Made by a program: the position numbers and the translations under genes. Positions 14,101-36,823 of a stretch of DNA of 64,000 nucleotides are shown here, in pieces. The stretch lies in NCBI GenBank assembly GCA_964036665.1, contig OZ038533.1:4078001-4142000 (forward strand), in the 5' to 3' direction. The first letter of the stretch is position 1, and every line of letters starts with the position of its first letter. Source of the stretch: Gordius sp. MW1. Lineage: Eukaryota > Nematomorpha > Gordioida > Gordea > Gordiidae. The notes beneath the pieces were generated by a model. That model was not told the origin of the DNA. It saw nothing but the letters and a program-made list of their open reading frames with translations, and made no database searches.

Positions 14101-17100
14101 TTTTTTTTTCGTTTTTTTTTGACTATTATGATTGTTCCTGTTCCTACCATTGCTATTATGACTTTTTGGCCGTCCGCTGGCTGCTGACCAATGGAATAAA
14201 ATGACCATTGGCCAAAATGTGATTCGAAAATTTTTTTTTCGTTTTTTTTTTGACTATTATGAATTTATATCCACTTTTACCGTGTCCTGGCTGCTGACCA
14301 ATGGAAAAAAATGTCCATTGGCCAAAATGTGATTCGAAATTTTTTTTTCTTTTTTTAACTCTTATGAATTTATATCCACTTTTACCGTGTGCTGGCTGCT
14401 GACCAATGGAAAAAAATGACCATTGGCCAAAGTGAGCATCAAAATTTTTTTTTCCGTTTTTTTGGCTATCATTGACTTATAGAGTATCTGTTGGTACTGA
14501 CCAATGGAGAAAAAATGACCATTGGCCAAATTTTTGATTTTTTTAATTAAAAATTGTTCAAATTCAACAAAAAATTTCTCCCAACAATTCTGCAAATTCT
14601 TAACATTGTGATATATAATGTTTGTTAGACCCATAATCACTAAAGGCCATAAAAACTAATGTAATGCGCAACTAGATGCAAACACTAAATCTAACCCTAA
14701 CCCTTGCCTATATTACATTTTGCCTATATTACTTTTTGCCTATAAATGGAAAATTTGTATAAATAATTAATTAATCATTAGGCATTTAATACCCCCCTAT
14801 AGGCATTCTCGCCCCTTCCCACCTTTCTCGCCCATAAATTGCATAGCAAATATGATACATTTATACGAAGTATAGATGAGTCGTCCCCCCTTCCCTTCCC
14901 CCCTTCCCTTCTCCCCTCCCCCTTCCCACGAGGGCCGAAGGCCCGTGTTTTTACAATATTAATTGCTATGCAATTTATGGGCTCGTTTTTGGTTGTCCGT
15001 CCGTCCGTTACCCTCCTATCTATTTGCATTGGGTATATTAGGTTATCGATTTTTTAAATTAATGCATGAGAAAGAGGTGCCCCACCCCTCATCTCTATCT
15101 CTCTCGCTGTGTTATTTTTAAAATTAATGCATGAGGTGCCCCATCCCTCATCTCTATCTCCCTCGCTTTCGGGCGGGATCGGGTTTTAATTGCTAAGTTA
15201 AATTAATGCATAAGTATATCTATTCGTTTTTAAATTGGGTAACATTGATATTAATTGCTATAATTACCCTTTGCCCTTCACTACAAGGGCCTATGCCTCT
15301 ACTGATATGGGTCCCTGTGCCCCTCCAAAAGCCTATGCCTCTATTAATGTGGGTTCGAACCCCGGCGAACGTTCTGAAATGCTGGTTCGATTCCCGGAGA
15401 GGGCAAATTTATTTTTATTTTTTAAATTAAATTAATAGATTTTTCCTGTTACTACCATTGATAATATGACTTTTTGGCCGTCCGCTTGTTCTATTATTAA
15501 TTGCTATGCAATTTATGGGCTCGTTTTTGGTTGTCCGTTGTCCGTCCATGAAAAAAATGATCATTGGCCAAAATGTGAATCCAAGTTTATTTTTTCTTTT
15601 TTTTTGACTAAATTATGATTGTTCCTGTTACTACCATTGCTAATACGACTTTTCGGCCGTCCACTGGCTGCTGACCAAAGAAAAAATGACCATTGGCCAA
15701 AATGTGAATCCAACTTTATTTTTTCGTTTTTTTTTACTATTATGATTGTTCCTGTTACTACCATTGCTGTTATGACTTTTTGGCCGTCTGCTGGCTGCTG
15801 ACCAATGAAAAAAATGACCATTGGCCAAAATGTGAATCCAAGTTTATTTTTTCGTTTTTTTTATTATTATGATTGTTCCTGTTACTACCATTGCTATTAT
15901 GACTTTTTGGCCGTCCGCTGGCTGCTGACCGATGGAAAAATGACCATTGGCCAAAATGTGATTCCAAGTTTTTTTTTCGTTTTAGTTTTGACTATTACGA
16001 TTGTTCTTGTTACTATCATTGATAATAAGACTTTTTGGCCGTCCGCTGGCTGCTGACCAATGAAAAAAATGACCATTGGTTAAAATGTGAATCCGAGTTT
16101 ATTTTTTCGTTTTTTTTTGACTATTATGATTATTCCTGTTACTACCATTGCTATTATGACTTTTTGGCCGTCCGCTGGCTCCTGACCGATGGAAAAAATG
16201 ACCATTAGCCAAAATGTGATTCGAAAATTTTTTTTCGTTTTTTTTTGACTATTATGAATTTATATCTACTTTTACCGTGTCCTGGCTGCTGACCAATGGA
16301 ATAAAATGACCATTGGCCAAAATGTGATTCGAAAATTTTTTTTTCGTTTTTTTTTACTCTTATGAATTTATATCCATTTTTACCGTGTGCTGGCTGCAGA
16401 CAGATGGAAAAAAATGACCATTGGCCAAAGTGAGCATCAAATTTTTTTTCCCGTTTTTTTGGCTATCATTGACTTATAGAGTATCTGTTGGTACCAATGG
16501 AGAAAAAATGACCATTCGCCAAATTTTTGATTTTTTTAATTAAAAATTGTTCAAATTCAACAAAAATTTCTCCCAACAATTCTGCAAATTTTTAACATTG
16601 TGATGTTTTATAATATAATGTTTGTTAGACCCATAATCACTAAAGGCCGTAAAAACTAATGTAATACGCAACTAGGCAAACACTAAATCTAACCCTAACC
16701 CTTGCCTATATTACATTTTGCCTATATTACATTTTGCCTATAAATGGAAAATTTGTATAAATAATTAATTAATCATTAGGCATTTAATACCCCCCTATAG
16801 GCATTCTCGCCCCTTCCCACCTTTCTCGCCCATAAATTGCATAGCAAATATGATACATTTATACGAAGTAAAGATGAGTCGTCCCCCCTTCCCTTCCCCC
16901 CTCCCCTTCTCCCCTCCCCCTTCCCACGAGGGCCGAAGGCCCGAGTTTTTTTTTATTTACGTTTTTAACACATACAAATTGTAAAAAAATTTTACGGGCT
17001 CGGACTTATAATTTAGTATTTTAACGGGCTTGGGCCGGGCCGGGCTTTTAAATTTTTATTACAGGCGGGCCGACTGACCTAAACAGGCCCGTTGCAGGTC

Positions 17101-20100
17101 TCTAACCTACAGGATGGCCCGATGTATCTGTGTAATTTAATATTCATGGCTACCAAAACATCAGCTTTGTCAAGAATCTCACTATTTTAACACTCAGAGA
17201 AATTCTCTAGCAATTTTATCCTCATAATTAACTTTTAAATATTAATTCCCGATCAAGAGTTTAAAAATGGCGACTCTCTCTTAGAGTTTATTAATTGCTA
17301 TGCAATTTATGGGCTCGTTTTTGGTGCGTCGTCCGTCCACCAAGTTATTGGCGCCAGCTTTGTGACCTGGATATCCCGGGTTCAAGCCAGGGAGGGGACG
17401 AATTTTTTTTAATTTCTTTAAATTAAATTAATATTTTGTTCTTGTTAATACCATTGATAATATGAATTTTTGACCGTCCGCTGGCTACTGACCTATGAAA
17501 AAGATGACCGACCATTGGCCAAATAAATCGAAATTTTATTTTTCTTTGAATTGGGTATATTAGGTTAACATTGATAAATACCCTATGCCCTTTTGTACAA
17601 GGGCCTACGCCTCTACTGATATGGGTCCCTATGCCCCTACAAAAGATGCCTTTACTAATGTGGGTCCCTGTGCCCCTACAAAAGCCTATGCCTTTACTAA
17701 TGTGGGTTCGAATCCCGGACAGGGCAAAATTTCTATTTTTTTTAAATAAAATTAGTATATTGTTCTTGTGAATACCATTGTTAATATGACTTTTTGACAG
17801 TGTTCTGGCTGCTGACCAATGGAAAAAATGACCATTGGCCAAAATGTGATTTGAAAATTTTTTTTAGTTTTTTTTTGACTATTATGAATTTATATCCACT
17901 TTTACCGTGTCCTGGCTGCTGACCAATGGAAAAAAATGACCATTGGCCAAAATGTGATTCGAAAATTTTTTTTTCGTTTTTTTTGACTCTTATGAATTTA
18001 TATCCACTTTTACCGTGTCCTTGCTGCTGACCAATGGAAAAAATGACCAGTGGCCAAATTGTGAATTGAATTTTTTTTCCTTTTTTTTGACTCTTATGAT
18101 TGTTCCTGTTAATACCATTGACAGTATGACTTTTTGGCCGTCCGCTGGCTGCTGACCAATTAAAAAAAATGTCCATTGGCCAAATTTTATATATAACCTA
18201 AAAATTTATTATAGATGGTCTAACAGACAGCCAACTATGTAATATATATTTTTAACCTTATAAATGCATATTTTTTTTTTATTGGGTTAATATATTTCAT
18301 TTAATTAGATTGTGATTTCATAGAAAACCTAAAAAGTAATAGTTAAAAAAATATAGGTATTAGATTCTAATTTACGATACAATATATTGATAAAAACTAA
18401 CACAAAATTCGAAACCTCCTTCAAAGGTATAATCATAGCCCGTTCTTTCTAATTAAATTCAATCTACTATTAAACTATTAAAACACGAATTGTACTTTAT
18501 TAGATGGCGCGCGTAAGTTTATATAATTAGTAAAAATTTTCTACGTGTTATAGATATTACACCGCACGTGTGGCCGGGAAATGTCCGATATTTTTAAAAC
18601 GAAAAGGTATTTTAGGAATCTGAAAAGGCTATTTTACCCCTGGCCGCCCTGGGCACCTACGGGTAAAGTTTCGAGCGAATCGGGCGGGTAGTTGTAGAAT
18701 TTAGCCTTTTTTTAAAACTAAAAGGAATTTTTATTTTAGTTTTTTTTCTTTAAAATTAAATTAATATTATGTTCTTGTTAATACCATTGATAATTTGACT
18801 TTTTGACCGTCCGCTGGCTTCTGACCGATGAAATATATTGATTTTCTAAACATAAAACAGAACTTTATTATTTCATTATCTATATAAATAACATAATAAC
18901 TTCTACTATTTTAATACCTGCATGGTGTGACGGGTTATAGCGCACGGCTTGTAAACAGGGTGACCTGGATGTCCCGGGTTCAAGCTCAAGAGAGGGCAAA
19001 ATTTTTATTTTTTTTTTAAATTAAATTAATGTTTTGTTCTTGTTAATATCATTGATAATATGACTTTTTGATCGTCCCCAGGCTACTGACCAATGGAAAA
19101 AATGACCGTTGGCCAAATAAATCGAAATTTTTTTTCGTTTTTGAATTGGTTAACTTTGATAATTACCCTATGCCCTCCCCTACAAGGGTCTATAACTAAT
19201 TATTTTGCATTTAATACCCCCCTATAGGCATTCTCGCCCTTTCCTACCTTTCTCGCCCATAAATTGCATAGCAAATATGCTACGTTTATACGGAGTATAG
19301 ATGAGTCGCCCCCCTTTCCTTCCCCTACTCCCCTTCCCAGAGTTTTTAATTGCTATGCAATTTATGAGCTCACTTTCCATTTTGTTTTGTCCCGCTATTC
19401 GGTGTCTTGCACCTAGTGTCTTGTCACGCATTTATTTATTGATTGGTTTTCTCATCAAAATCAAACTAGTTTAGCACAAGAAATTTCGTGAGAATTATAT
19501 ATCATGAATATTACTATAGGCTCCGTGCTTAAAACTTACGATTCTGGCTCGAGGCTGGCCCAAGCCGCGGCCTACCTATCTGACTATAACGAATTGGTCC
19601 GATTGCATTGGTCGGACCCTGACTCGGCCTTTGCTGATTACGGAATACACACTCGATCTCACGTAGAATTACGGAAGGTACCGAATGAACCGAACAACCC
19701 GGGAGGAGCCGGATACCGAATAATTCGTTACGAACCGGCCCGACCCGCCCTGGGATTTGTGGGTCGTGAATGCTATGGGTACGTTAGTTTATTTCCATTT
19801 CTCGCCCTCCTCCTACCTTTCGACTCGCCCGCCCTCGCCCGACTCCTCCGGCACGACCTGAGGGACGAGACCTTGCTTTGGTCCTCTTACGGACTTAGGA
19901 GCCTCGCCCGTTCATCCGCCTCCTACTATCGCACCCCCAACACCGAACACGATCCGCCCTATTGGCGGGGCGACGTGTGGATCAACATTAATTACCTGGC
20001 CTTGAGGTAAAATTAGTTTTTTACAGGGGAGAGGGGTAGTTTTTAAGACCCGTGTGCCGATCCGAATACATCAGCCTAACTGCCTATAATTAAGTAAAAT

Positions 20101-20729: not shown

Positions 20730-21776
20730 CCTCCCCCCTCGGCCCCGCCCCTTTTTGTTTATCCTTTTGTTTACACAATTTTGGGCCAATATTTTTAACC
20801 GGACCAATGCGAAAAAATATGAAAAAAGAAAAAGTGCGAATTATAAATGTTTTTATATCATGCGATTTGATCGAACTTGTTTAGTCAATTTTTAGTGACA
20901 TATTTTTGCACCTTTATAAAATGATCACTTTGTTTCGCGTTGCGAAACTTATTATTATTCATTCGTCCAATTTTTACTTTTTATAGTTTCCCAATTTATT
21001 ATTTATCGAAAAATAATATGATAGATGTTCATGCTTTCTTTTTCCTTGTTTATTTCGCATTTTTTTAAAGATTATAATCATTTCAAGTTATGGAAAGAAT
21101 GGTGAAACATTCTGACTTTTAAGATATAGATAAGTAAGAGATCAATTTGTAAGGAATGAATATACAGTTGTCGCCATCATTTCTTTGTTTATTTTTTGTT
21201 TTGATGCCTTTGGATTGTTAGCACCCTGAAAGGTCTATTTGTTTTTTGCTTGCACTCATCATCATGCCTTAGGGCTTCCTTCCTTCTACGTCCACATGTG
21301 TTCTGTCCGCATCTGGAGACATAAATATAGTTGTTAAGTTGTGATATGCTCCATCTTGGATGTAAACATGTATATTGCATATGTGCCTTGACGCTTAAGC
21401 TACTAGATCTATCGGTAAAATACGTGAGGGACTAAGTTGTAACTAGTATTGTGTTAAAGCCTTAGACTATATAGATAGACTGCTCATGCCATATGTTGCA
21501 TATGGGTAATTGTGTGTCTAATTTTCCTCCTTGTTGAAGAGTGTATTTGGTGTATTTTAACCGTGTAATTTTGCCCTATAACAGTCGATTTACCTTCCTC
21601 ACTAGTTTATAAATTAAAAAAAAACGTCAATAAATTAATATTTTACAAAATATTGATGGCACTATATTATTAAACAAACTTTAATCGCAGTTTTTACATT
21701 TTTAATCTTTATGTATTTTTTAAATGATATTTATTTTAAAATGCTGTTTTTGATATCTACCCACTTTAATATTTTT
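20730..21776. other. 3' flank of MOGS with one dispersed repeat
   Basis: AT-rich. At 21465-21585 it contains TAGATAGACTGCTCATGCCA, ATGTTGCATATGG, ATTGTGTGTCT and GGTGTATTTTAACC in order. These recur with changes at 59231-59585, directly upstream of the THAP exon, so it is a copy of the same element's 5' part. Nothing else is recognised, and no convincing polyadenylation signal could be chosen. Confidence 0.5.
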
Positions 21777-22270
21777 AATTGCTATGCAATAGTGTTGTAA
21801 AAACGGCTGGCTGGTTTTTCCCAGCGTATTGCTAAGCTTAGTTGTTGACGTTTATTTTCACCCAGCCTTATCAGTGTTAGGTGAATTTTCTTGGGAGAGC
21901 TTTGGCGTTTGGCGTTTTTGTAAAAAAGACCTAAAGCGTTCTGGGTGAATGTTTCGGGGTGACCTTTGGCGTTTAGGTTTGGGTGTATTAAACACCTAAA
22001 GGGTGTGGGTGGATAATATTATTAACCTTTTGGTTTGGTTTTGGTAGTTTGGGGTGGGGCAAGCAAATATATCAATTTTAGGTAATAAACTTTAAATTTA
22101 AGAAAATAAAAATAGTTATATCATGACGTCACTGAGTTAAAACTTTTCCCATTGTGACGTCATAATGAAAAATATTATAATTTATAATCTAATCTCTAGT
22201 AAATTACAGTTAATTATTATGCTTTGCTTATGCTGCATTATAGAAGTAATGTTTTATTTATGAAAAAAAG

Positions 22271-23213
22271 ATGGCTAAAATCCGTTTAATGATTTCAAAA
22301 ATTATTTTTTAGACATGCCAAAAATTTTATAAAAATTTATAAAAGGTGGGAAATTTCGCTTTGTAGAATCTTCTATATAGATGGCTAAAATCTGTTTAAT
22401 GATTTCAAAATTTATTTTTTAGACATGCCAAAAATTTTATAAAAATCTATAAAAGGTGGGAAATTTCGCTTTATAGAATATTCTATAAAGATGGCTAAAA
22501 TCTGTCTAATGATTTCAAAATTTATTTTTTAAACATGCCAAAAATTTTATAAAAATTTATAAAAGGTGGGAAATTTCGCTTTGTAGAATCTTCTATATAG
22601 ATGGCTAAAATCTGTTTAATGAATTCAAAATTTATTTTTTAGACATGCCAAAAATTTTATAAAAATCTATAAAAGGTGGGAAATTTCGCTTTATAGAATA
22701 TTTTATAAAGATGGCTAGAATCTGTTAAATGATTTCAAAATTTATTTTTTAGACATGCCAAAAATTTTATAAAAATTTATAAAAGGTGGGAAATTTCGCT
22801 TTGTAGAATCTTCTATATAGATGGCTAAAATCTGTTTAATGATTTCAAAATTTATTTTTTAGACATGCCAAAAATTTTATAAAAATTTATAAAAGGTGGG
22901 AAATTTCGCTTTGTAGAATCTTCTATATGGCTAAAATCTGTTTAATGATTTCAAAATTTATTTTTTAGACATGCCAAAAATTTTATAAAAATTTATAAAA
23001 GGTGGGAAATTTCGCTTTGTAGAATCTTCTATATAGATGGCTAAAATCTGTTTAATGATTTCAAAATTTATTTTTTAGACATGCCAAAAATTTTATAAAA
23101 ATTTATAAAAGGTGGGAAATTTCGCTTTGTAGAATCTTCTATATAGATGGCTAAAATCTGTTTAATGATTTCAAAATTTATTTTTTAGACATGCCAAAAA
23201 TTTTATGAAAATT
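22271..23213 (+). repeat. FB1 left arm: nine 110-bp units
   Basis: ATGGCTAAAATCTGTTTAAT starts recur at 22271, 22381, 22491, 22601, 22711, 22821, 22927, 23037 and 23147. One unit is 106 bp and the last is cut short. Two unit types alternate at first (TTGTAGAATCTTCTATATAG and TTATAGAATATTCTATAAAG), giving a 220-bp higher-order repeat, and then only the first type continues. Confidence 0.95.
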
Positions 23214-23894
23214 TATTTAAATATATATTTTTTAATTTTCTGCCTCAGCCAGGTGGTAACAATTTTTCTGAACATTTTAATATGGTTTAACTTTATAATT
23301 TACACATTTGCTAAGCAGATTAATTGCGATTAATCACAAAATTTAATTTCAAATATATTTTGAATTCCTCGGCTCTTGTAAAAGATAAAGACTTATTAGT
23401 TATATAATGTCCCTTTTATTTTATATTTGTAGTAGTGTTGTAAAAACGCCAGCGTATTGCTAAGCTTAGTTGTAAAGTTGTAAACAAGCTAATTAATATT
23501 CCTTAATCTCAGCATTTTACCCCTCTTTATGACAGAGCTTATGCGTCCGAGCACATATGGTAGCTATATATTTTTTATGATCCTTATAAGCATTGTAAAC
23601 GCGAGGTCTAAGTCAACAGAATAGCATGATATGCTTTTTGGAAATGCCTTATTTATTTTCTTAACACTTGAGAGGTTGGGTCAAAAATGCTAACACGGAT
23701 GGTATTTGGGGTAATAATTAGAATTACCCCAAACTTTAAATAGCTATAACTTAGATATTTTATAATATAAATTTGTCAAAATTTGCAAGGATAATATTTC
23801 AACTCTTATACGTTCATTAATATATTAATTTGCCTATTCAAGTGGTTTAAATTTTATGCCTATAATTAGAGCAAACCTGAGGCAGAAAATTCAA
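23214..23894. mobile_element. FB1 core with an orphan foldback end
   Basis: Two stretches are shared with the FB2 core: about 23320-23425 (with TTTGAATTCCTCGGCTCTTG) and about 23566-23650 (with TAAGCATTGTAAACGCGAGG). Between them, at 23433, is TAGTGTTGTAAAAACG plus GCCAGCGTATTGCTAAGC, a lone copy of the foldback terminus. No reading frame was recognised. Confidence 0.75.
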
Positions 23895-24640
23895 AAATAT
23901 ATATTTAAATAAATTTTAAAATTTTTGGCATGTCTAAAAAATAAATTTTGAAATCGTTAAACAGATTTTAGCCATCTATATAGAAGATTCTACAAAGCGA
24001 AATTTCCCACCTTTTATAAATTTTTATAAAATTTTTGGCATGTCTAAAAAATAAATTTTGAAATCATTTAACAGATTTTAGCCATCTTTATAGAATATTC
24101 TATAAAGCGAAATTTCCCACCTTTTATAGATTTTTATAAAATTTTTGGCATGTCTAAAAAATAAATTTTGAAAACATTAAACAGATTCTAGCCATCTTTA
24201 TAAAATATTCTATAAAGCGAAATTTCCCACCTTTTATAGATTTTTATAAAATTTTTGGCATGTCTAAAAAATAAATTTTGAATTCATTAAACAGATTTTA
24301 GCCATCTATATAGAAGATTCTACAAAGCGAAATTTCCCACCTTTTATAAATTTTTATAAAATTTTTGGCATGTTTAAAAAATAAATTTTGAAATCATTAG
24401 ACAGATTTTAGCCATCTTTATAGAATATTCTATAAAGCGAAATTTCCCACCTTTTATAGATTTTTATAAAATTTTTGGCATGTCTAAAAAATAAATTTTG
24501 AAATCATTAAACAGATTTTAGCCATCTATATAGAAGATTCTACAAAGCGAAATTTCCCACCTTTATAAATTTTTATAAAATTTTTGGCATGTCTAAAAAA
24601 TAATTTTTGAAATCATTAAACGGATTTTAGCCATCTTTTT
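23895..24640 (-). repeat. FB1 right arm: seven 110-bp units, inverted
   Basis: GCCATC marks fall at 23971, 24081, 24191, 24301, 24411, 24521 and 24630. Private variants of left-arm units recur at mirror positions: TCTGTCTAATG, GAATTCAAAA and GCTAGAATCTG of left units 3 to 5 appear inverted near 24403, 24280 and 24187. Confidence 0.95.
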
Positions 24641-27600
24641 TTCATAAATAAATCATTACTTCTATAATGCAGCATAAGCAAAGCATAATAATTAACTATA
24701 ATTTACTAGAGATTAGATTATAAATTATAATACTTTTCATTATGACGTCACAATGGGAAAAGTTTAAACTCAGTGACGTCATGATATAACTATTTTTATT
24801 TTCTTAAATTAAAAGTTTATTACCTAAAATTGATATATTTGCATGCCCCACCCCAAACGACCAAAACCAAACCAAAAGGTTAATAATATTATCCACCCAC
24901 ACCCTTTAGCTGTTTAATACACCCAAACCTAAACGCCAAAGGTCACCCCGAAACATTCACCCAGAACGCTTTAGGTCTTTTTTACAAAAACGCCAAACGC
25001 CAAAGCTCTCCCAAGAAAATTCACCTAACACTGATAAGGCTGGGTGAAAATAAACGTCAACGCTTGCAGGCGACCAATAGAAACCCTTGGTTTTTTACAA
25101 CACTAATGCAATTTATGGGCTCGTTTTTGGTGCGTCGTCCGTCGTCCACCAAGTTATTGGCGCCAGCTTTGTGACCTGGATATCCCGGGTTCAAGCCAGG
25201 GAGAGGACGATTTTTTTTTTTAATTTTTTTAAATTAAATTAATATTTTGTTCTTGTTAATACTATTGATAATATGAATTTTTGACCATCCGCTGGCTACT
25301 GACCAATGAAAAAAATGACCATTGGCCAAATAAAGCGAAATTTTTAATTGCTATATGCAATTTATGGTATTTTTTCGTCTTTGAATAGGTTAACATTTAT
25401 AATTACCCTAGCCCCCTTTCCTACAAGGGCCTACGCCTCTAATGATATGGGTCCCTGTGCCCCTTACCAAAGCCTATGCCTTTACTGATATGGGTCCCTG
25501 TGCTCCTTACCAAACCCTATGCCTTTACTAATGTGGGTTCGAATCCCGGAGAGGGCAAAATTTTTTATTAATTTTTTAAATTAAATTAATTAATTGTTCT
25601 TGTTAATACCATTGATAATGTGACCTTTTGGCCGTCCGCTGGCTACTGATTAATGAAAAAAATGACCATTGGCCAAAATGTGTATCGAAATTATTTTTTT
25701 CGTTTTTTTTTGACTATTATGATTGTTCCTGTTACTACCATTGCTAATGTGATTTTTTGGCCGTCCGTTGGCTGCTGACCAATGGAAAAAAATGGCCATT
25801 GGCCAAAATGTGTATCGAAATTATTTTTTTCGTTTTTTTTTGACTATTATGATTGTTCCTGTTACTACCATTGCTATTGTGACTTTTTGGCCGTCTGTTG
25901 GCTGCTGACCAATGGAAAAAATGACCATTGGCCAAAATGTGATTCGAAAATTTTTTTTTGACTATTATGAATTTATATCCACTTTTACCGTGTCCTGGCT
26001 GCTGACCAATGGAAAAAAATGACCATTGGCCAAAATATTCGAAAATTTTTTTTTAGTTTTTTTTTGACTATTATGAATTTATATCCACTTTTACCGTGTC
26101 CTGGCTGCGGACCAATGGAAAAAAATGACCATTGGCCAAAATGTGATTCGAAAATTTTTTTTTCGTTTTTTTGACTCTTATGAATTTATATCCACTTTTA
26201 CCGTGTCCTGGCTGCTGACCAATGGAAAAAATTGACCATTGGCCAAATTGTGAATCGAAATTTTTTTTCCGTTTTTTTTGACTCTTATGATTGTTCCTGT
26301 TAATACCATTGATAATATGACTTTTTGGCCGTCCGCTGGCTGCTGACCAATGGAAAAAAATGACCATTGGCCAATCAAAATTTTTTTCCGTTTTTTTTGG
26401 CTATCATTGACTTATAGAGTATCTGTTGGTACTGACCAATGAAAAAAAATGACCATTTGCCAAATTTTATATATAACCTAAAAATTTATTATAGATGGTC
26501 TAACAGACAGCCAACTATGTAATATATATTTTTAACCTTATAAATGCATATATATTTTTTTATTGGGTTAATATATTTCATTTAATTATATTGTGATTTC
26601 ATAGAAAACCTAATAAGTAATAGTTAAAAAAGTATAGGTATTAGATTCTAATTTACGATACAATATATTGATAGAAACTAACACAAAATTCGAAACCTCC
26701 TTCAAAGGTATAATCAAAGCCCGTTTTTTCTAATTAAATTCAATCAATTATTAAACTATTAAAACACGAATTGTACTTTATTAGATGGCGCGCGTAAGTT
26801 TATATAATTAGTAAAATTTTCTACGTGTTATAGATATTACACCGCACGTGTGGCCGGGAAATGTACGATATTTTTAAAACGAAAAGGTTTTTAGGAATCT
26901 GAAAAGGCTATTTTACCCCTGGCCGCCTTGGGCACCTACGGGTAAAGTTTCGAGCGAATCGGGCGGGTAGTTTCAGAATTTAGCCCTTTTTTAAAACTAA
27001 AAGGAATTTTTATTTTAATTATTTTTCTTTAAAATTAAATTAATATTATGTTCTTGTTAATACCATTGATAATTTGACTTTTTGACCGTCCGCTGGCTAC
27101 TGACCGATGAAATATATTTATTTTCTAAACATAAAACAGAACTTTATTATTTCATTATCTATATAAATAACATAATAACTTCTAATATTTTAATACCAGC
27201 ATGGTGTGACGGGTTATAGCGCACGGCTTGTAAACAGGGTGACCTGGATATCCCGGGTTCAAGCTTGGGAGAGGGCAAAATTTTTATTTTATTTTAAATT
27301 AAATTAATATTTTGTTCTTGTTAATATCATTGATAATATGACTTTTTGATCGTCCGCAGGCTACTGACCAATGGAAAAAATGACCAGTGGCCAAATAAAT
27401 CGAAATTTTTTTTTCGTTTTTGAATTGGTTAACATTGATAATTACCCTATGCCCTCCCCTACAAGGGTCTATAACTAATTATTTTGCATTTAATACCCCC
27501 CTATAGGCATTCTCGCCCCTTCCTACCTTTCTCGCCCATAAATTGCATAGCAAATATGCTACGTTTATACGGAGTATAGATGAGTCGCCCCCCCCCCTTC

Positions 27601-27641
27601 CCTTCTCCTACTCCCCTTCCCACGAGGGCCGAAGGCCCGAG

Positions 27642-29350
27642 TTTTTTATTTACCTTTTTAAAATTATTTAATTTGAGAAAATTACTAATTTCTATATGCT
27701 CACAACGTTACAATCCTCGTTTAAAATGGTGTCTATTTAGTCTAAGGTTAAAGCACGTTATTTTAGAGATGCGCTTCCGGACCCTTTCGCACTCTTTCCC
27801 TCTCCTTACTTCGCAAGCAACTTACTCCCTCCTTACCATATATATGTTTTCGCCACTCTTGCAATTAACTTTGCACCTTTTTATAATTTGGTTGTTGTCA
27901 AAAATTTGTCGATTTTTTTTGCTAGGATACTAACAATTTTAAAAAAGCAAAAATAATATTTAATTTTTTAGAAAATAAACTATCAAAATTATTCATTCTA
28001 TTTTTTCCCCAATTTCATAATGTATATGTTTTATATAAAAAATGTAATAACTAAATTATTTTTAAAACAACTTTAAAAAATATTTCATTCAAATATCTTA
28101 CCAATTGTAATGTATTTTACAATTCAAACTTAAAAATTACCAGTTTTTTAATTCAATATTCCTCGCAATAATTTTAAAGTTTCGGCCACGTTTTTTAAAC
28201 ACAATATTTGGCAAAAAATTGACAAATTTCGGACAAAAACCACCAAATAAAAAGGTGCGAAGTTCAAAAGTTAATAGTAGGGCTTAATCAATTTTTAATA
28301 CTTTAAAAATATTAAATCCTGCCCCTTAATTGCAGGCTTTGGTTCTATTGCAGAACTAGCTTATAAAAAAAGTTTTTTTTGAAGTTTGAGTTGTTGATAT
28401 TTTATGATAAATGCCTAAAATAAACTTAAACCGTAAAAATTGAACTAGAAGTCAGGCTTTCGATTTCCTTATTTTTAGTGACATAAATCATCAAATGTCA
28501 AACTTATAATAATATAAAACCACCAAAATCGGGTTTAAATCTGCTTAAACCCAACGCTGGCAATTCCAGAAACCTTTGAAATGGTCATTAAAGCCTAAAC
28601 ATTTCGTTAATCTTATTGTCTTTAAAATAAGTGTTGAGCCTTCAGGTACATTTTTTATTTCATTAATAATAATTATGTATGTTTCAATCATTTTAAGACG
28701 GCTATTTCATCTTGGTTCAAAACACAAATGAATGGACTGGCTTAGTTTATTTAACAACCTAGCGTATATCATTCCTTTTAAATCCGTTAGCTATAAGAAG
28801 TAGGTTTCTTTTTGATCTATTTAACATAAAATAGGTGGGAGAGTAAAAATAGGGTGGAAAGAATGAATGTTTAACATAATTTTCATCTAAAAATTTATTT
28901 CTGGTATCATTAAAGCCAAAAAACAGTGAAATTATTTTATAATGTAATCTGAAGAATCTTTTAATCTAATAATAAGGTAAAAGCTTAAATTGTGTACTAT
29001 CACTAATAAAAAGAATTTAGTATTAGTAAAAAAATTCAAATCACAATTAATTAATTTAAATACCCAATTTTTTAATATACATTGAAAGACTTTACAACCA
29101 ATATTTTGGCATAATTAAAGTCTAGGATGTTACTATAAACAAGTGTAAAAAGGTTTTATTGTATTATACAAATAGTAAATAGTTAATAATAATTTAAATT
29201 TGGCAACCAATTACTGTTTAAAATATAAATTTTGTCAGTAGTCAAATATTAAAAGCATTTTTGCTTTGTTTCTCTCCTATTATGTCAATAATATAGAAGA
29301 CTGACAACCCTATCTCCATGTAAGGGTTAATAAAGTGTAAAACATTTGTG
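27642..29350. other. AT-rich intergenic DNA
   Basis: No gene, repeat family or RNA recognised. It separates the interrupted X copy from the 3' end of the RNF4-like gene. Confidence 0.6.
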
Positions 29351-30720
29351 CTAAATATGTAATAAATGAATTTGATTTCTTCTGAGCTTTGTCCGGCACA
29401 TGGGGCAATTGTTTCCTTGTGAAAATGCTGTTAAAATGCAAACTCGGCAAAATATATGTCCACAAATTGTTGACATTATGGCATTATTTTCTTGTTGTAA
29501 TATCTGCAAAAACAAAAAATTGTAAAATGATTAATATACAAACTCTTATATATAAATATCTTTTTCCCTTGATGATGCACCTCTTTGGCCTTATACCACA
29601 TAAGATATTTAGGCTTTAAAAATAATATATATTTAAACTGGCATGCCCACACATAACTCTCACAAAAAAATTAAAACATGTGACATGCTAGAGATTTACT
29701 AATAATTAAAAACAATTCTATTTATGATATATTTTCATGTAAATACGATAGAAGTTGAGGCCACTATGATAAAAAATAATATATTCATGTCAATTGATCA
29801 TTAAATACTCACACTTTGATGGTCTTCTAGACATACACCACATGAGATAACATTTGAAATTTTAGGAGCATCCCTGCTATATTTGAGATGATATTTTAGT
29901 AAAAATATTGTAAACCAATTGACACAAATTTATAAAAAATTGTATTTACTTCAAAATTGGCTGTGAAATTTTATTTGATAATTTAGGTAAAACCTCTTCT
30001 TCGCTCTCATCTTTATACATAGCAATTTACAAATAAAAATAATATTTATAATTACCTGAAATTGTTTGTTCAGAGGAATGAGCTGATTCATTTTCATTAT
30101 TATCTGAATTTTGAGCAGAAGAAATGACTGCTGATTCATAGATGGATTCATCACTGAAATCAGTATCAAGCTCCACATCCGAGTTGTCATGTATTGATGA
30201 TTGTTCAAGTTCCATATTTTGATTGTCGGAATTTACAGAAATGCTATCGCCACTTGTTTCATATTCAATATTTCCATCATTCACATCATAAGTATCTTCA
30301 TCAATGGCACTTTCTTCAGCTGAGTTATCAAATATAACTTCGTCATTTGAATCACTATAGTCATTAATTGAAGCTTGTATAGAAGTATCAGACTCGTCAG
30401 ATGTTGATGAGTGGACGTTGGTAGAACATTTACCTTAAAAATATAATCCTACAATAAAAAAAATACATATTGAGATGCTGGAAGCTTCATCTTCAATACT
30501 TGACTGCGATAAAGCTTCACAACTAAATTATACTATATTGCCAAAAACATTTAAAACTACTTGTCACATATACCCTCTTGAGTGAGGGATGATTGATCTG
30601 AATCATCAGATGTATCATACATTTCAGAATGCTACAGAGTAAATGATAATACATATATTTATATACCTCAAAACTAATCATAGTAGCTTTCTTATTAACT
30701 GTAATAGTGAAAGCAGGCAT
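29351..30720 (-). CDS. RNF4-like SUMO-targeted RING E3 ubiquitin ligase, complete
   Basis: Six exons on the minus strand, in transcript order: 30720-30667, 30631-30574, 30433-30056, 30010-29950, 29873-29813, 29503-29351. All introns are GT-AG, phases match, and the total of 765 bases gives 254 residues plus TAG. The ATG at 30720 follows a likely 5'-UTR intron (TTTTATTAG just before it). Residues 19-183 are Ser/Asp/Glu-rich with short hydrophobic patches in acid (VIFD 70-73, VELD 124-127, AVIS 139-142) that could bind SUMO. The C-terminal C3HC4 RING has C195, C198, C218, H220, C223, C226, C237 and C240. The last 14 residues, RTKLRRNQIHLLHI, parallel the RNF4 ending. RNF4 puts ubiquitin on poly-SUMO-modified nuclear proteins; that role is inferred. 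It could be another acidic RING protein. Confidence 0.85.
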
Positions 30721-31113
30721 CTAATAAAACGATTCGGGTACATTTGCTAACTGCTCAAACGCTTCATAATAGCGCATTTTGGTACATATTCAAATTATAA
30801 AATTATGAAATTAAGGTTATATAAACAACATTTTTTGAATAATTAAAAATAGTGGTTTTTATAAAACCTTATTTAAATGTTATAATATAAGTAAGTATAG
30901 GTGTAAGAGTATAATATTAAAGCATAATAAGCTATATTTTTTATATTGATAGATAATTTATTCACTCGACAGCTGATCGCGCGAAAAAAATAGAGCGGTG
31001 TATAGACCATCTATAAATTCTCTGTATTTCTTTGTAGTGCTTGATTAATTAAACAAATTTTCTTAACTAAAATTACAATAAAAAGCTTCAATTCGTCTTT
31101 CTATACCTGAAAC
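30721..31113 (-). other. upstream region of the RNF4-like gene
   Basis: The 393 bp between the start codon and foldback 2 should hold the promoter and 5' UTR. A GC-richer patch, AGCTGATCGCGCG, lies at about 30970-30983. No TATA-type or other control site could be assigned. Confidence 0.35.
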
Positions 31114-31575
31114 TAGTGTTGTAAAAAACCAAGGGTTTCTATTGGTTGCCTGCAAGCGTTGGCGTTTTTTTCACCCAACCTTTTCAGTGTTAGGTGAATT
31201 TTCTTGGGAGGGCTTTGGCGTTTGGCGTTTTCGTAAAAAACACCCAAAGCGTTTTGGGTGTTTTTTTAGGGCACCTTTGGCGTGTAGGTTTGGGTGTATT
31301 AAAGAGCTAAAGGGTTTGGGTGGATAATATTATCAACCTTTTGGTTTGGTTTTGGTCGTTTTGGGTTGGGCATGCAAATATATCAATTTGTTTATATTGT
31401 TCATCATATTTGTGTATTTAGATTTAGGTAATGAACTTTTAATTTAAGAAAATAAAAATAAATGTATCATGACGTCACAATCTAGTAAATTCAGTAAATT
31501 ATAGTTAATTATTATGCATTATAGAAGTAGGGAGTGAATCAATATGTTTTATTTATGAAAAAAAAATTTGTGAAG

Positions 31576-32645
31576 ATTTGCCCCCCCCCCCTTTATTTTT
31601 TACCCTCTTTCTGATCCGGGGGAGAGGCGGGGGGGGGGGCAGGGGGGTGTTTTGCCCCCCTCCCCTAATTTTTTACCCTCTTTCTGATGCGAGGGAGAGG
31701 GGGGTGGCAGGGGGTGTTCCCCCCCAATTTTTTACCCTATTTCTGATGGGGGGGAGAGGGGGGGCATGGGGGGTGTTTGGCCCCCCCCCCTATTTTTTAT
31801 CCTCTTTCTGATGTGGGGGAGAGGGGGGAGGGCATAGGGGGTGTTTTGCCCCCCCCCTAATTTTTTACCCTCTTTCTGATCAGGGGGAGAGGGGAGGGCA
31901 GGGGGGTGTTTTGCCCCCCCCCCTTATTTTTTACCCTCTTTCTGATGTGGGGAGAGGGGGGGGGCAAACCCCCCCCCCCCCCCCTAATTTTTTACCCTCT
32001 TTCTGATCAGGGGGAGAGGGGGGGGCATGGGGGGTGTTTTGCCCCCCCCCCCAATTTTTTACCCTCTTTCTAATGCGGGGGGAGAGGGGGGCATAGGGGG
32101 TGTTTTGCGCCCCCCCTAATTTTTTACCCTCTTTCTGATCAGGGGAAGAGGGGGGGCATGGGGGGTGTTTTGCACCCCCCCCCCTATTTTTTACCCTCTT
32201 TCTGATGTGGGGGAGAGGGGGGGGGCATAGGAGGTGTTTTGCCCCCCCCCCCCAATTTTTTATCCTCTTTCTAATACGGGGGAGAGGGGGGGGGGGCATA
32301 GGGGGTGTTTTGCGCCCCCCCTAGTTTTTTATCCTCTTTCTGATCAGGGAGAGAGGGGGCGGGGCATGGGGGGTGTTTTGCCCCCCCCCCCTTATTTTTT
32401 ACCCTCTTTCTGATGTGGGGGAGAGGGGGGGGGGGCAAAGGGGGTGTTTTGCCCCCCCCCCTAATTTTTTACCCTCTTTCTGATCAGGGGGAGAGGGGGG
32501 CGGCATGGGGGGTGTTTTCCCCCCCCCCTTATTTTTTACCCTCTTTCTAATGTGGGGGAGAGGGGGGCATGGGGGGTGTTTTGCCCCCCCCCCGAATTTT
32601 TTACCCTCTTTCTGATGCGGGGGAGAGGGGTGCAGGTGGGGTGTT
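31576..32645 (+). repeat. FB2 left arm: about 16 G/C-run units
   Basis: Each unit is TTTTTACCCTCTTTCTGATG or a near match, then GGGGGAGAGGGGG, GGCATGGGGGGTGTTTTG and a run of C. Units vary in run length, with GATCAGGG and GATGYGGG types alternating. The open frames here are proline/glycine-rich by-products of the runs. Confidence 0.93.
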
Positions 32646-33790
32646 TTCAATAAATAGAAAACGATTATAAAGTGAGATTCATCTGGCCTTTCGAGAGCAG
32701 ATTTTGAATTCAATCCTTCAGTTAAAAATTAATATTTTAATTCATTCTAAATTAATGACAGCTAACAGATCACCCTCTAAATATAGCCGGCAAATACTAA
32801 TTTTAATCACAAAATTTAATTTCAAATATATTTTGAATTCCTCGCCTCTTGTAAAAGATAAAGACTTATTAATTATATAATGTCCCTTTTATTTTATATT
32901 TAAACTATATTTTCAATATCAGAGAACGGCATCCCGCGCGACTCGACATATCACCACTCCCATGTAGCATGTACATGTTCATGTACTAATCCACCCTCTC
33001 TCTTCCTTCTCTCGTTGCAATGCATGCGCAAAACCAGATTTAAACCTATCAGATTTAAGTTAAGTACTAAACTAAAATAAAAAAATCATGGCACAACAAG
33101 GCATGGTGTGGCGTGGACTGGCTAGGCTCTTTATTACATCATTTACATTCATTTCTTTTTAACGTACAACATATCAAGGTATGTAGAAGTTGCGAATAAT
33201 AAATGAAAATTAAACTTTTTTTTATTATGTCAACTACTAATTAAGTCATAAGCAATTAGAAAATTAAGTTTCTTATTAAATAATAAGTAAATTAAGATGC
33301 TTAACTCATTTTTGTTACTCAGAAAAGTCCGATATTTTTTATGATCCTTATAAGCATTGTAAACGCGAGGTCTAAGTCAACAGGACGTAGAGTGTTGGTG
33401 CCTTGTGAAAGCATAATAATTAATAGCATGATATGCTTTTTGGAAATACCAAGTTTTTCCATTAAATGCCCAGATAACTTAAATAGTAAAACTTACTTAC
33501 CCATGATGGCAAATTTTTTTAAACTGGTAAAATTTCATATTAATATTATATTTAATAATACAGCTTATTTCCTAAATGAAGTTAAATTAAAAAAATTTAT
33601 TTTAATTGATATAGTATATTAAGTCAATTGTTGACCGCAAATCTTCAAAAATATATTTTCGAATATTAAAAAATCTTTGTCATATAATAAGTCTATTTTA
33701 AAAAAAAAATATTAATTTTAATAGAAAATGTTGATTATGACATTTGTCACCACTGTGACAACAAAAATTGACAAAAACATTTTGAAAGGG
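32646..33790. mobile_element. FB2 core
   Basis: It contains the FB1-core segments near 32810-32908 (TTTGAATTCCTCGCCTCTTG) and 33330-33445 (TAAGCATTGTAAACGCGAGG). The remainder differs from FB1. A frame at 33341-33622 is AT-rich and unsupported. Confidence 0.7.
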
Positions 33791-35725
33791 TTAAAAAGGG
33801 CTTTCCGGCCCCCCCCCCGGGTGAGAAAGAGAGTGAAAAATAAGAAGAGGGGCGATTCACCCCCCCCCCCCTCTCCCCGGCATCAGAAAGAGGGTAAAAA
33901 ATAAGGGGGGGGGGCAAAACACCCCCCATGCCCCCCTTCCCGGGTGAGAAAGAGGGTAAAAAATTAGGGGGGGGGGGGACAAAACACCCCCCATGGCCCT
34001 CTCTGCCCCGCATTAGAAAGAGGATAAAAAATTAGGGGGGGGGGGGGCAAAACACCCCCTGCCCCCCTCTCCCTCGCATCAGAAAGAGGGTAAATAATTA
34101 GGGGGGGGGCAAAAAACCCCCCTGCCCCCCCTCTCCCCCCCCCCCCCCCCCCCCATCAAAAAGAGGGTAAAATATTAGGGGGGGGCAAAACACCCCCCTG
34201 CCACCCCCCTCTCCCTCGCATCAGAAAGAGGATAAAAAATTAGGGGGGGGGGGCAAAACACCCCCTGCCCCCCCTCTCCCTCGCATCAGAAAGAGGGTAA
34301 AAAATTAGGGGGGGGGGGCAAAAAACCCACTTGCTCCCCTCTCCCCCGCATCAGAAAGAGAGTAAAACATTCGGGGGGTGGGCAAAACACCCCCCTGCCA
34401 CCCCCCTCTCCCTCGCATCAGAAAGAGGATAAAAAATTAGGGGGGGGGGCGAAACACCCCCCTGCCACCCCCCTCTCCCTCGCATCAGAAAGAAGATAAA
34501 AAATTAGGGGGGAGGGGGGCAAAACACCCCCCTGCCCCCCTCTCCCCCGCATCAGAAAGAGGGTAAAAAATTAGGGGGGGGGCGCAAAACAGCCCCCATG
34601 CCGCCCCCCTCTCCCCCTGATCAGAAAGAGGGTAAAAAATTAGGGGAGGGGGGCAAAACACCCCCCTGCCCCCCGCCTCTCCCCCACATCAGAAATAGGA
34701 TAAAAAATTGGGGGGGGGGGGCAATACACCCCCCATGCCGCCCCCCTCTCCCCCTGATCAGAAAGAGGGTAAAAAATTAGAAAACACCTCCTATGCCCCC
34801 CCCCCTCTCCCCCACATCAGAAAGAGATTAAAAAAAAGGAGGGGGGGGCACAAACACCCCTCATGCCCCCCTCCTTTCCCCCTGATCAGAGAGGGTAAAA
34901 AATTAGGGGGGGGGGCGCAAAACGCTCCCTATGCCCCCCCTCTCCCCCGCATTAGAAAGAGGTTAAAAAATTTGGGGGGGGGGGGCAAAACACCCCCCAT
35001 GCCCTTCCCTTTCCCCCACATTAGAAAGAGGGTAAAAAATATGGGGGGGGGGCAAAACACCCCCCATGCCCCCCCCCTCTCCCCCTGATCAGAAAGAGGG
35101 TAAAAAATTAAAGGGGGGGGGGCAAAACACCCCCTATGCCCCCCCCCTCTCCCCCACATCAGAAAGAGGGTAAAAAATAAGGGGGGGGGGCAAAACACCC
35201 CCATGCCCCCCCTCTCCCCCTGATCAGAAAGAGGGTAAATAATTAGGGGGGCGGCAAAACACCCCCCATGCCCCCCCTCTCCCCCACATCAGAAATAGGG
35301 TAAAAAATTGGGGGGGGGGGGGCAAAACACCCCCCATGCCCCCCCTCTCGACCTGATCAGAAATAAGGTAAAAAATTGGGGGGGGGGGCAAAACACCCCC
35401 CATGCCCCCCCCCTTTCCCCACATCAGAAAGAGGGTAAAAAATAAGGGGGGGGGGGCAAAACACCCCCTATGCCCCCCCCTCTCCTCCGGATCAGAAAGA
35501 GGGTAAAAAATTAGGGGGGGGGGCAAAACACCCCCTCTCCCTTGCATCAGAAAGAGGGTAAAAAATTAGGGGGGAGGGGGGCAAAACACCCCCCTGCCCC
35601 CCCCCCCCGCCTCTCCCGCGGATCAGAAAGAGGGTAAAAAATAGGGGGGGGGGCAAACACCCCACCTGCCCGCCGTTCTTCCCCAGGTGAGAAAGAGGGT
35701 AAAAAATAAAGGGGGCGGGCAAATC
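33791..35725 (-). repeat. FB2 right arm: about 28 G/C-run units, inverted
   Basis: AGAAAGAGGGTAAAAAATTA marks recur about every 65-75 bp with pure C and G runs of 6-20 between. The arm is nearly twice as long as the left one, so one arm has expanded or the other shrunk. Confidence 0.93.
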
Positions 35726-36197
35726 TTCACAAATTTTTTTTCTCATAAATAAAACATATTGATTCACTACCTACTTCTATAATGCATAATAATTAACTAT
35801 AATTTACTAAATTTACTAGATTGTGACGTCATGACACATTTATTTTTATTTTCTTAAATTAAAAGTTCATTATTTAAATCTAAATACACAAATATGATGA
35901 ACAATATAAACAAATTGATATATTTGCATGCCCAACCCAAAACGACCAAAACCAAACCAAAAGGTTAATAATATTATCCACCCAAACCCTTTAGCTCTTT
36001 AATACACCCAAACCTAAACGCCAAAGGTGCCCCAAAAAAACACCCAAAACGCTTTGGGTGTTTTTTACGAATACGCCAAACGCCAAAGACCTCCCAAGAA
36101 AATTCACCTAACACTGAAAAGGTTGGATGAAAAAAACGCCAACAACTAAGCTTAGCAATACGCTGGGAAAAACCAGCCAGCCGTTTTTACAACACTA

Positions 36198-36823
36198 CCT
36201 GAAACTATGAAATCTCCACCTATATGCTTGTGTATTGAAGTATTGCTAATTTCAATTTGTGCTCATGAACTTCAGGTTAACAAATACAATAAAATCAAGT
36301 TTAATTGTTATCTACATTGTTTTGTATTGTTTTACAATTAATCAAATTATAAACCCATTCAACTGCAGCATTAATTCATTCAAAAACTCATATTATTTCT
36401 AAAGGATTTATTCAATTACCACCAGCAGCAAGAATTATATATCATGAGGATGCATAAACCAATGCTAGTTATTCCAGATATACCTCACATTTGCACAATA
36501 TATTTATTATCAAATTCTACTTTGAAATATATTTTAATATCTCTTAACTACTATCAGAGGATGTTTACAAACATTTTATGATGCTTTCCATAAAAGGTAA
36601 GCAATTTATACCCTACAAGTTTTAATATGACCTTTGGTGAATCCTTTGAGCCATTTTTTTCAATATCATACAATTAATAATACATTTCCCATATACTCTT
36701 TTGTATTATTAAACTTGCAAAATTCTTATAAATCATACAGCTTTAAAATTTAAAATGATCCCAACTTTAGTATCAATTGTTCAACTTATCCTCTTATAAA
36801 TCAAGTTTTTTTTTATCCCACAT
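36198..36823. other. AT-rich intergenic DNA
   Basis: No feature recognised apart from the 8-bp target duplication of FB2 at its start. Confidence 0.6.

Follow-up and report, generated by a model that had tools for sequence, protein, structure and literature searches.

Related ends around unrelated mirrored arrays: the foldback elements FB1 and FB2 of Gordius sp. MW1 and their relatives

Introduction

Long repetitive inverted ends occur in several transposon superfamilies. Among foldbacks, Drosophila FB and sea urchin TU have tandem-repeat arms and variable middle parts; the elements described here resemble them by general description, not by sequence comparison. How both arms of such elements stay mirrored, and how new arms arise, is to our knowledge considered unsettled. 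This article examines two foldback elements, FB1 and FB2, in a 64,000-nucleotide stretch of the nematomorph Gordius sp. MW1 (GenBank assembly GCA_964036665.1, contig OZ038533.1, positions 4,078,001 to 4,142,000), together with their relatives elsewhere in the genome. The whole stretch is referred to as the window; it corresponds to G000:C7:4078001-4142000 of the 211.8-Mb assembly (12 contigs) that was analysed.

The closest described systems come from Drosophila. Galileo of D. mojavensis (PMC3573991) shares with the FB family long, internally repetitive inverted ends, several subfamilies in one genome, unequal repeat numbers per arm, recruitment of core sequence into the inverted repeats, and chimaeric copies. 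It differs in that it belongs to the P superfamily and makes 7-bp duplications. A single phylogeny of terminal inverted repeats (TIRs) contains its subfamilies as groups, whereas the FB family has three unrelated arrays inside related ends, one of them common to other tips. Tetris and DAIBAM of D. virilis (PMC4079207) resemble the FB family in being non-autonomous, with a flanking domain, tandem-repeat arms and tips in common with a miniature inverted-repeat transposable element (MITE); for Tetris, an origin of the repeats by duplication of an element segment has been suggested, and its target duplications are 8-10 bp long. Unlike the FB family, Tetris has, in the accessible text, one array type (220 bp) and no arm transfer between tips, and its authors suggested that it is Mutator-related. 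Finally, hAT MITEs such as Mar (Drosophila; PMC3517528) have 8-bp duplications and short tips and are non-autonomous, but Mar measures ~610 bp, with 11-bp TIRs and the duplication consensus nnnTAnnn (Buster), which differs from the one in the FB family. Several unrelated arrays in one family, a relic arm in a core, and one array across different tips were not found in the accessible text of the open-access literature searched, a search that left subscription literature mostly outside.

The reading favoured here, with moderate confidence, is that FB1 and FB2 represent two subfamilies within a single foldback family, non-autonomous and probably mobilised by hAT, in which arm replacement is rare and from which one transfer led from FB2 to another transposon, FB4. 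Tips, arms and cores of these modular foldbacks probably have separate histories, with rare replacement of arms and a single arm-core transfer.

Architecture of FB1 and FB2

FB1 (21790-25105) and FB2 (31114-36197) have exact limits and are foldback transposons with common tips, TAGTGTTGTAAAAA; both start with TAGTGTTGTAA and finish with its complement. Each has long inverted tandem-repeat arms around a non-repeated core, and mobility is apparent from discrete copies and target duplications at many sites. Their parts, in window coordinates, are:

21790..25105, + strand: complete FB1 (3316 bp), with tip A on the left and tip B on the right
21790..21848, + strand: FB1 tip A (TAGTGTTGTAAAAACGGCTGGCTGG...)
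21851..22267, + strand: FB1 left end (end1)
22269..23216, + strand: FB1 left arm, 110-bp units x 8.7
23217..23905, + strand: FB1 core; shared block 1 at 23330-23428, partial inner tip A at ~23436-23473, shared block 2 at 23568-23648
23917..24636, - strand: FB1 right arm, 110-bp units x 6.6, inverted
24638..25054, - strand: FB1 right end (end1), inverted
25054..25105, - strand: FB1 tip B
31106..31113, no strand: left copy of the FB2 8-bp target duplication, CCTGAAAC
31114..36197, - strand: complete FB2 (5084 bp), with tip B on the left and tip A on the right
31171..31560, + strand: FB2 left end (end2), then TTTGTGAAGATTTGC, interpreted as the beginning of an old unit of the 128-bp type
31577..32647, + strand: FB2 left arm, G/C units of 65-67 bp, ~15-16 copies
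32649..33830, + strand: FB2 core; c2l at 32649-32802, shared block 1 at 32803-32901, then c2m1
FB2 core, further parts, + strand: shared block 2 at 33332-33383 and 33422-33450, c2r at 33451-33830
33451..33830, + strand: FB2 c2r, read as a relic of an older 128-bp arm unit; homologous to FB3 arms and FB4 core
33863..35723, - strand: FB2 right arm, G/C units of ~68 bp, ~28 copies, inverted
35743..36130, - strand: FB2 right end (end2), inverted
36140..36197, - strand: FB2 tip A
36198..36205, no strand: right copy of the FB2 8-bp target duplication, CCTGAAAC

The inverted arms are 97% identical in FB1 (21844-22355/24550-25061) and 94% identical in FB2 (31158-31600/35701-36143). The arrays within them are of different kinds, as a first reading made from the letters of the window alone (the sequence-only reading) had described: FB1 has 110-bp units (8.7 + 6.6 copies, 94-95% identity) and FB2 has G/C units of about 65-68 bp (about 15-16 + 28 copies, 78-81% identity), each array being mirrored. 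The same core segments were also recognised correctly at that stage; three common blocks of 99 bp (98%), 52 bp (100%) and 29 bp (97%) lie in the same order in both cores.

The outer inverted sequence of ~450-480 bp, which was taken to be the same in both elements, requires a finer description. Left and right ends are nearly identical within one element, and FB1 and FB2 ends can be aligned over their full length, with 9.4% substitutions at aligned sites and several indels. They are related throughout, not dissimilar; the outermost ~55 bp, however, consist of two distinct tips, A (containing CGGCTGGCTGG) and B (containing CCAAGGGTTTC), which are not inverted copies of each other and are similar only over their first ~13-14 bp. 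FB2 lies in the opposite orientation to FB1, and the core of FB1 holds an inner, partial copy of tip A.

The window has two further features. Several arrays of about 107-bp and 130-bp units lie within positions 3420-18099 and 25593-26290. Pieces of a ~430-bp MITE with the FB4 tip lie at 21472-21780 and 27643-27711, on either side of a 5.9-kb block containing FB1; the two pieces overlap by about 9 bp in MITE coordinates, so the block was seemingly inserted into the MITE.

Linkage of end type and array type

Apart from FB1 and FB2 there is a third subfamily, FB3, with the same tips (tip A 90-94%), related ends (end3) and mirrored arms of a 128-bp AT-rich unit. The ends of the three subfamilies diverge from one another by about 9-25% of aligned sites. 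When the genome was searched by the ends and the arrays between them were listed, as had been proposed from the window, 91 of 106 termini proved readable, and all follow one rule: end1 is joined to 110-bp units (38 termini), end2 to G/C units (36) and end3 to 128-bp units (17). In the copies read, each arm type belongs to one subfamily.

The 106 termini comprise 30 loci that are the best matches to the FB1 end; 8 loci picked along a list of 40 FB2-end matches; 20 B tips, from about 57 listed, that fall outside both of these top lists; 31 A tips with no listed exact B partner nearby, picked by eye; and, from assembled elements, another 17 ends. Similarity to the window's ends guided the choice of the first two sets, but not of the third and fourth. 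The 91 termini represent about 79 elements, since some elements contribute both ends and a terminus of L001 (the window's FB1) is counted twice.

One of the others, L082, is ambiguous; G/C units follow an end most similar to end1, though only at 80%, and a tree of ends places it at the base of the G/C group. The remaining 14 are unscorable or something else. One has a degraded tip (L027, whose array is of the 110-bp type); three ends were missed in scoring, although separate anatomy shows the expected arm (L071A, L074 and F3_C2_3885kB); one is a MITE (L077), one a deletion (L088) and one passes into a c2r unit (L107); and seven have no adjacent array (L039, L046, L079, L087, L099, L086 and L110). 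The tree, built from 74 ends, splits by arm type, with A and B ends intermixed; the 128-bp clade has support 100, the 110-bp clade 69 and the G/C clade (including L107) 69.

These data do not bear out the proposal of the sequence-only reading that the family keeps its ends and swaps its arms element by element. Array type tracks end type in the readable termini, L082 being ambiguous. The accompanying proposal, that the ends alone are recognised, fares better. Common tips and related ends enclose unrelated mirrored arrays, and FB3 adds a third kind of array; arrays that differ while tips stay common fit recognition of tips, not of arms.

An older arm type within the FB2 core

The 128-bp unit of FB3 is homologous to c2r, of which 1-3 copies lie on one side of the FB2 core. 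Local alignment of the unit with the FB2 core gives a score of 159, as against a maximum of 42 in 60 shuffles. At locus L107, an end2-like end passes into a c2r unit at TTGTGAAGATTTGC/GGTCA, the same point at which FB2 begins its G/C array (TTTGTGAAGATTTGC/CCCC).

On these alignments, the simplest reading is that the G/C array arose within an older arm of the 128-bp type, of which the c2r of FB2 would be a remnant. Since c2r is homologous to the FB3 unit and the G/C array starts inside the old unit, FB2 may be regarded as a replaced-arm element with relics of its older arm. The idea that an array grew from a short seed and then came to lie on both sides, offered earlier as an alternative, fits this picture, in that the full arm unit of FB3 is a segment of 1-3 copies in the FB2 core. 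L088, a 660-bp element with one 128-bp unit, was first read as such a seed; this was dropped, a deletion derivative being the better explanation.

G/C arms between unrelated ends: FB4

Five G/C arrays away from the listed tips, chosen by eye, led to a further transposon, FB4. Its tip, CATAGACTAGATAGACTGCTCATT, has 112 exact matches genome-wide, and an end of its own (~105 bp) precedes the first G/C-like unit. Neither the FB1-FB3 loci nor the window contain a match to the outer part of the FB4 end, except for one L088 flank; conversely, the FB4 loci contain nothing that matches FB1-FB3 ends or tips. Of 8 copies read through the middle, 6 have a core made up of one c2r fragment (87-89%) together with G/C arrays. 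Among 13 further FB4 tips sampled, 11 lead to G/C arrays, and two (L125 and L127) are part of a MITE of ~430 bp that has the FB4 tip and lacks G/C units.

The junction from c2r to the array is common to FB2 and FB4, at 90-95% across 168-179 aligned bases. A tree was built from 42 copies of c2r or the 128-bp unit (42 of 81 matches kept, FB3 being limited to three per element); in it FB4 falls with 10 of 20 FB2 c2r copies (support 89), within a joint FB2-FB4 clade (support 90). The common junction, this tree and the homology to FB3 favour transfer from the FB2 lineage to FB4, although they are not decisive; as judged from these comparisons, the G/C arm-core block probably moved in that direction.

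The opposite direction would make FB4 the source, its G/C arms and core having been given to the TAGTG-tipped family, for example by a nested insertion whose tips were lost. FB4 is compact and, with its 112 exact tips, common, and the FB2 array does begin inside an older unit, as an insertion would. Yet c2r is homologous to the arms of FB3, which have TAGTG tips; FB4 c2r groups within the FB2 copies; and the outer FB4 end is unmatched in the FB1-FB3 elements read. A source in FB4 is accordingly considered unlikely.

Another small foldback, at L016 3000-3467, has G/C-run units between different outer sequences.

Tips, target duplications and superfamily

Exact tip patterns occur genome-wide 249 times for A (some of them inside FB1 cores) and 154 times for B, and reversed-pattern controls gave 0 matches; the abundance of the tips is therefore not due to chance. 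The family tip sequence is TAGTGTTGTAAAA. Among 26 assembled FB1/FB2-type elements, 19 have an exact 8-bp target duplication and one has a 7/8 match. FB2 of the window has a perfect 8-bp duplication, and the flanks of the window's FB1 have only ATGCAA in common. In FB3, three of four complete copies have an exact duplication and one has a 7/8 match; for FB4 copies with both tips, the figures are 5 of 7 exact and 2 at 7/8. The FB1/FB2-type duplications are thus 8 bp long, unlike the 7 bp of Galileo, which belongs to the P superfamily; for Mutator-like elements (MULEs) the range is about 9 (8-10) bp. Among 22 duplications entered by hand, the second base is T in 17 and the seventh base is A in 12.

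The tips of hAT elements follow the rule YARNG, and their target preference is nTnnnnAn. TAGTG matches the tip rule; the FB4 tip CATAG does not. As both the 8-bp duplications and the tip fit hAT elements, membership of the FB1/FB2 family in hAT is likely rather than proven. Matches to the hAT dimer domain are abundant genome-wide, with 150 scored out of 3413 candidates; when these 150 were set by eye against the A tips listed for C1-C3, not one was within 10 kb of such a tip. For autonomous partners, open reading frames of L009, L025, L032, L038, L039, L046 and L047 were inspected and six were sent to Pfam; these six, from L009, L025, L032 and L038, gave weak matches only and no transposase domain.

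At L038 2897-4987, ~2 kb of other sequence interrupts an FB2-type core; a 95-aa frame in it weakly matches FLYWCH (22.0 bits, cut-off 23.6).

The FLYWCH domain is present in some Mutator-like elements. The family might instead be a foldback of the Mutator type, since most described foldbacks are ascribed to Mutator in the accessible text of the Tetris study (PMC4079207), and the below-cut-off frame in the L038 core insertion would point the same way. This assignment also appears improbable, because the 8-bp duplications go together with the tip TAGTG and with the T2/A7 preference.

Several other observations concern the tips. The first ~20 bp of tip A also occur in an abundant MITE, with 804 exact matches genome-wide to the MITE-type pattern; the source of this pattern is L077 (G000:C1:23024900-23026258), a ~200-bp MITE with tip-A-like sequence at both ends. 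L005 and L030 (G000:C5:17496744-17500269) mark an element of the FB1 type that has tip A on either side and lacks a matching target duplication. In G000:C2:5564918-5659096 the strand of tip A alternates at spacings of about 15.8, 19.5 and 21.5 kb, and two copies are nearly identical, which suggests a large inverted segmental array. L018 and L019 (G000:C8:13081889-13090610) are FB1-type copies 5.25 kb apart, with near-equal anatomy and the same bases outside tip A; they are probably a segmental duplication.

Similarity of the two sides, core flips and chimaeras

The two sides of an element have not evolved apart, as can be seen from the mixing of A and B ends in the end tree and from the finding that no site is fixed by side in end1 (18 elements) or end2 (6 elements). 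The effect within single elements is small. Permutation tests for end homogenisation gave p=0.011 and 0.049, with a tiny effect, and the two ends of one element have ~7 differences in 415; strong homogenisation within elements was rejected as main evidence, the gap within an element being barely below that between elements. For the arrays, the own partner is the nearest opposite arm in 4 of 16 110-bp elements (p=0.012), 2 of 6 G/C elements (p=0.29) and 2 of 4 128-bp elements (p=0.08). Arm lengths are mostly unequal (equal in 2/19, 0/6 and 0/4, respectively), but in the 110-bp group they correlate (Spearman 0.60, p=0.006). Copying between sides seems to act at the subfamily time scale, and in some elements, rather than as constant refilling. 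A templated filling of the arms, as the sequence-only reading had envisaged, is weakly supported by the 110-bp excess and not significantly by the G/C and 128-bp arms.

Recombination between inverted arms is expected to flip cores, and both core orientations relative to the tips are found. The counts are 11 vs 4 in FB1-type elements (9 vs 4 without E_C6_5075k, which has a partial core, and E_C5_10374k, whose A tip lies outside the piece of sequence read) and 2 vs 4 in FB2-type elements. In some FB1-type copies (L006 and L049), c1a and block 1 lie on both sides, so that the mirrored arm extends into the core. G/C units turn up within the core in at least four elements of the FB1 type; at L091 these units run on into the c2l and c2m1 of FB2. 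Such elements are read as chimaeras. One arm containing both units had been named beforehand as a finding that would speak against an exchange of arms; it is approached by these cores with G/C units inside 110-bp arms, but they are read as chimaeras rather than as an ancestral arm.

If a templated process swapped or refilled the arms again and again, one element at a time, mirrored arrays, the own-partner excess of the 110-bp elements and the chimaeric cores would all be expected. The subfamily rule of the 91 readable termini and the lack of a significant excess in G/C and 128-bp arms make this quite improbable. Least probable, and for FB2 and FB4 unlikely, is that G/C-run repeats exist as free sequence in the genome, which several transposons each captured or regenerated on their own: G/C runs are prone to slippage, and the small foldback beside L016 has similar units between other flanks, but the common FB2/FB4 junction would be left unexplained.

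A model for rare arm replacement

The favoured history of one family with rare arm replacement starts from the observed structures, target duplications, linkage, homologies, common junction and core flips; for the type of transposase, the direction of transfer and the repair mechanism, we infer the following. A transposase acting in trans would recognise the tips, leaving the interior free to change. Arms would be tandem arrays grown just inside the ~450-bp subterminal end. Their replacement would be rare and would mark the birth of a subfamily, the older 128-bp arm surviving as FB3. In the FB2 lineage, a G/C array may have started inside the old unit, of which 1-3 copies would remain as relics in the core. 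From the time that an element had a pair of inverted arms, recombination, conversion and error-prone gap repair could keep the sides alike in the long term; the same processes could flip cores and splice pieces of elements into other elements, and one such event may have given the G/C arm-core module to FB4, a transposon with unrelated tips.

This picture is complicated by a number of results that weigh against it. The end difference of own pairs is barely below that of other pairings (1.74% vs 1.89% for end1, 1.07% vs 1.16% for end2), the own-partner excess of arrays is not significant for G/C and 128-bp arms, and the 110-bp and G/C end clades are supported at only 69. Core exchange between FB1 and FB2 is not shown by a tree of block 1 (99 bp), and no homologue of the 110-bp unit rises above shuffles in the FB2 core or the FB3 parts tested. 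For FB4, support for its own c2r clade is 58, and the short copies L116 and L117 are without c2r, L117 having a single array. Six of the 26 FB1/FB2-type elements are without a matching duplication (two with no match, L037, the window's FB1, one that has tip A on either side and one with its A end outside the piece of sequence read), and no transposase was found with the tips of the FB1/FB2 family.

Implications

One genome here holds a natural series: a segment of the FB2 core forms the full arms of FB3, a second array stands inside the old unit in FB2, and the block lies between the tips of FB4. This series makes the order of arm-replacement events testable by sequence. If the interpretation is right, core relics record the order of arm replacement in foldback families. 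Because the history of the tips can differ from that of the arms or the interior, transposons are poorly classified by their arms and cores. It is also suggested, tentatively and at slightly less than even confidence, that mirrored tandem arrays are transferable transposon parts: an arm-core block may be re-ended by other tips and the same tips may take new arms, so that families would form networks of tips, arms and cores in which old arms are kept as core relics.

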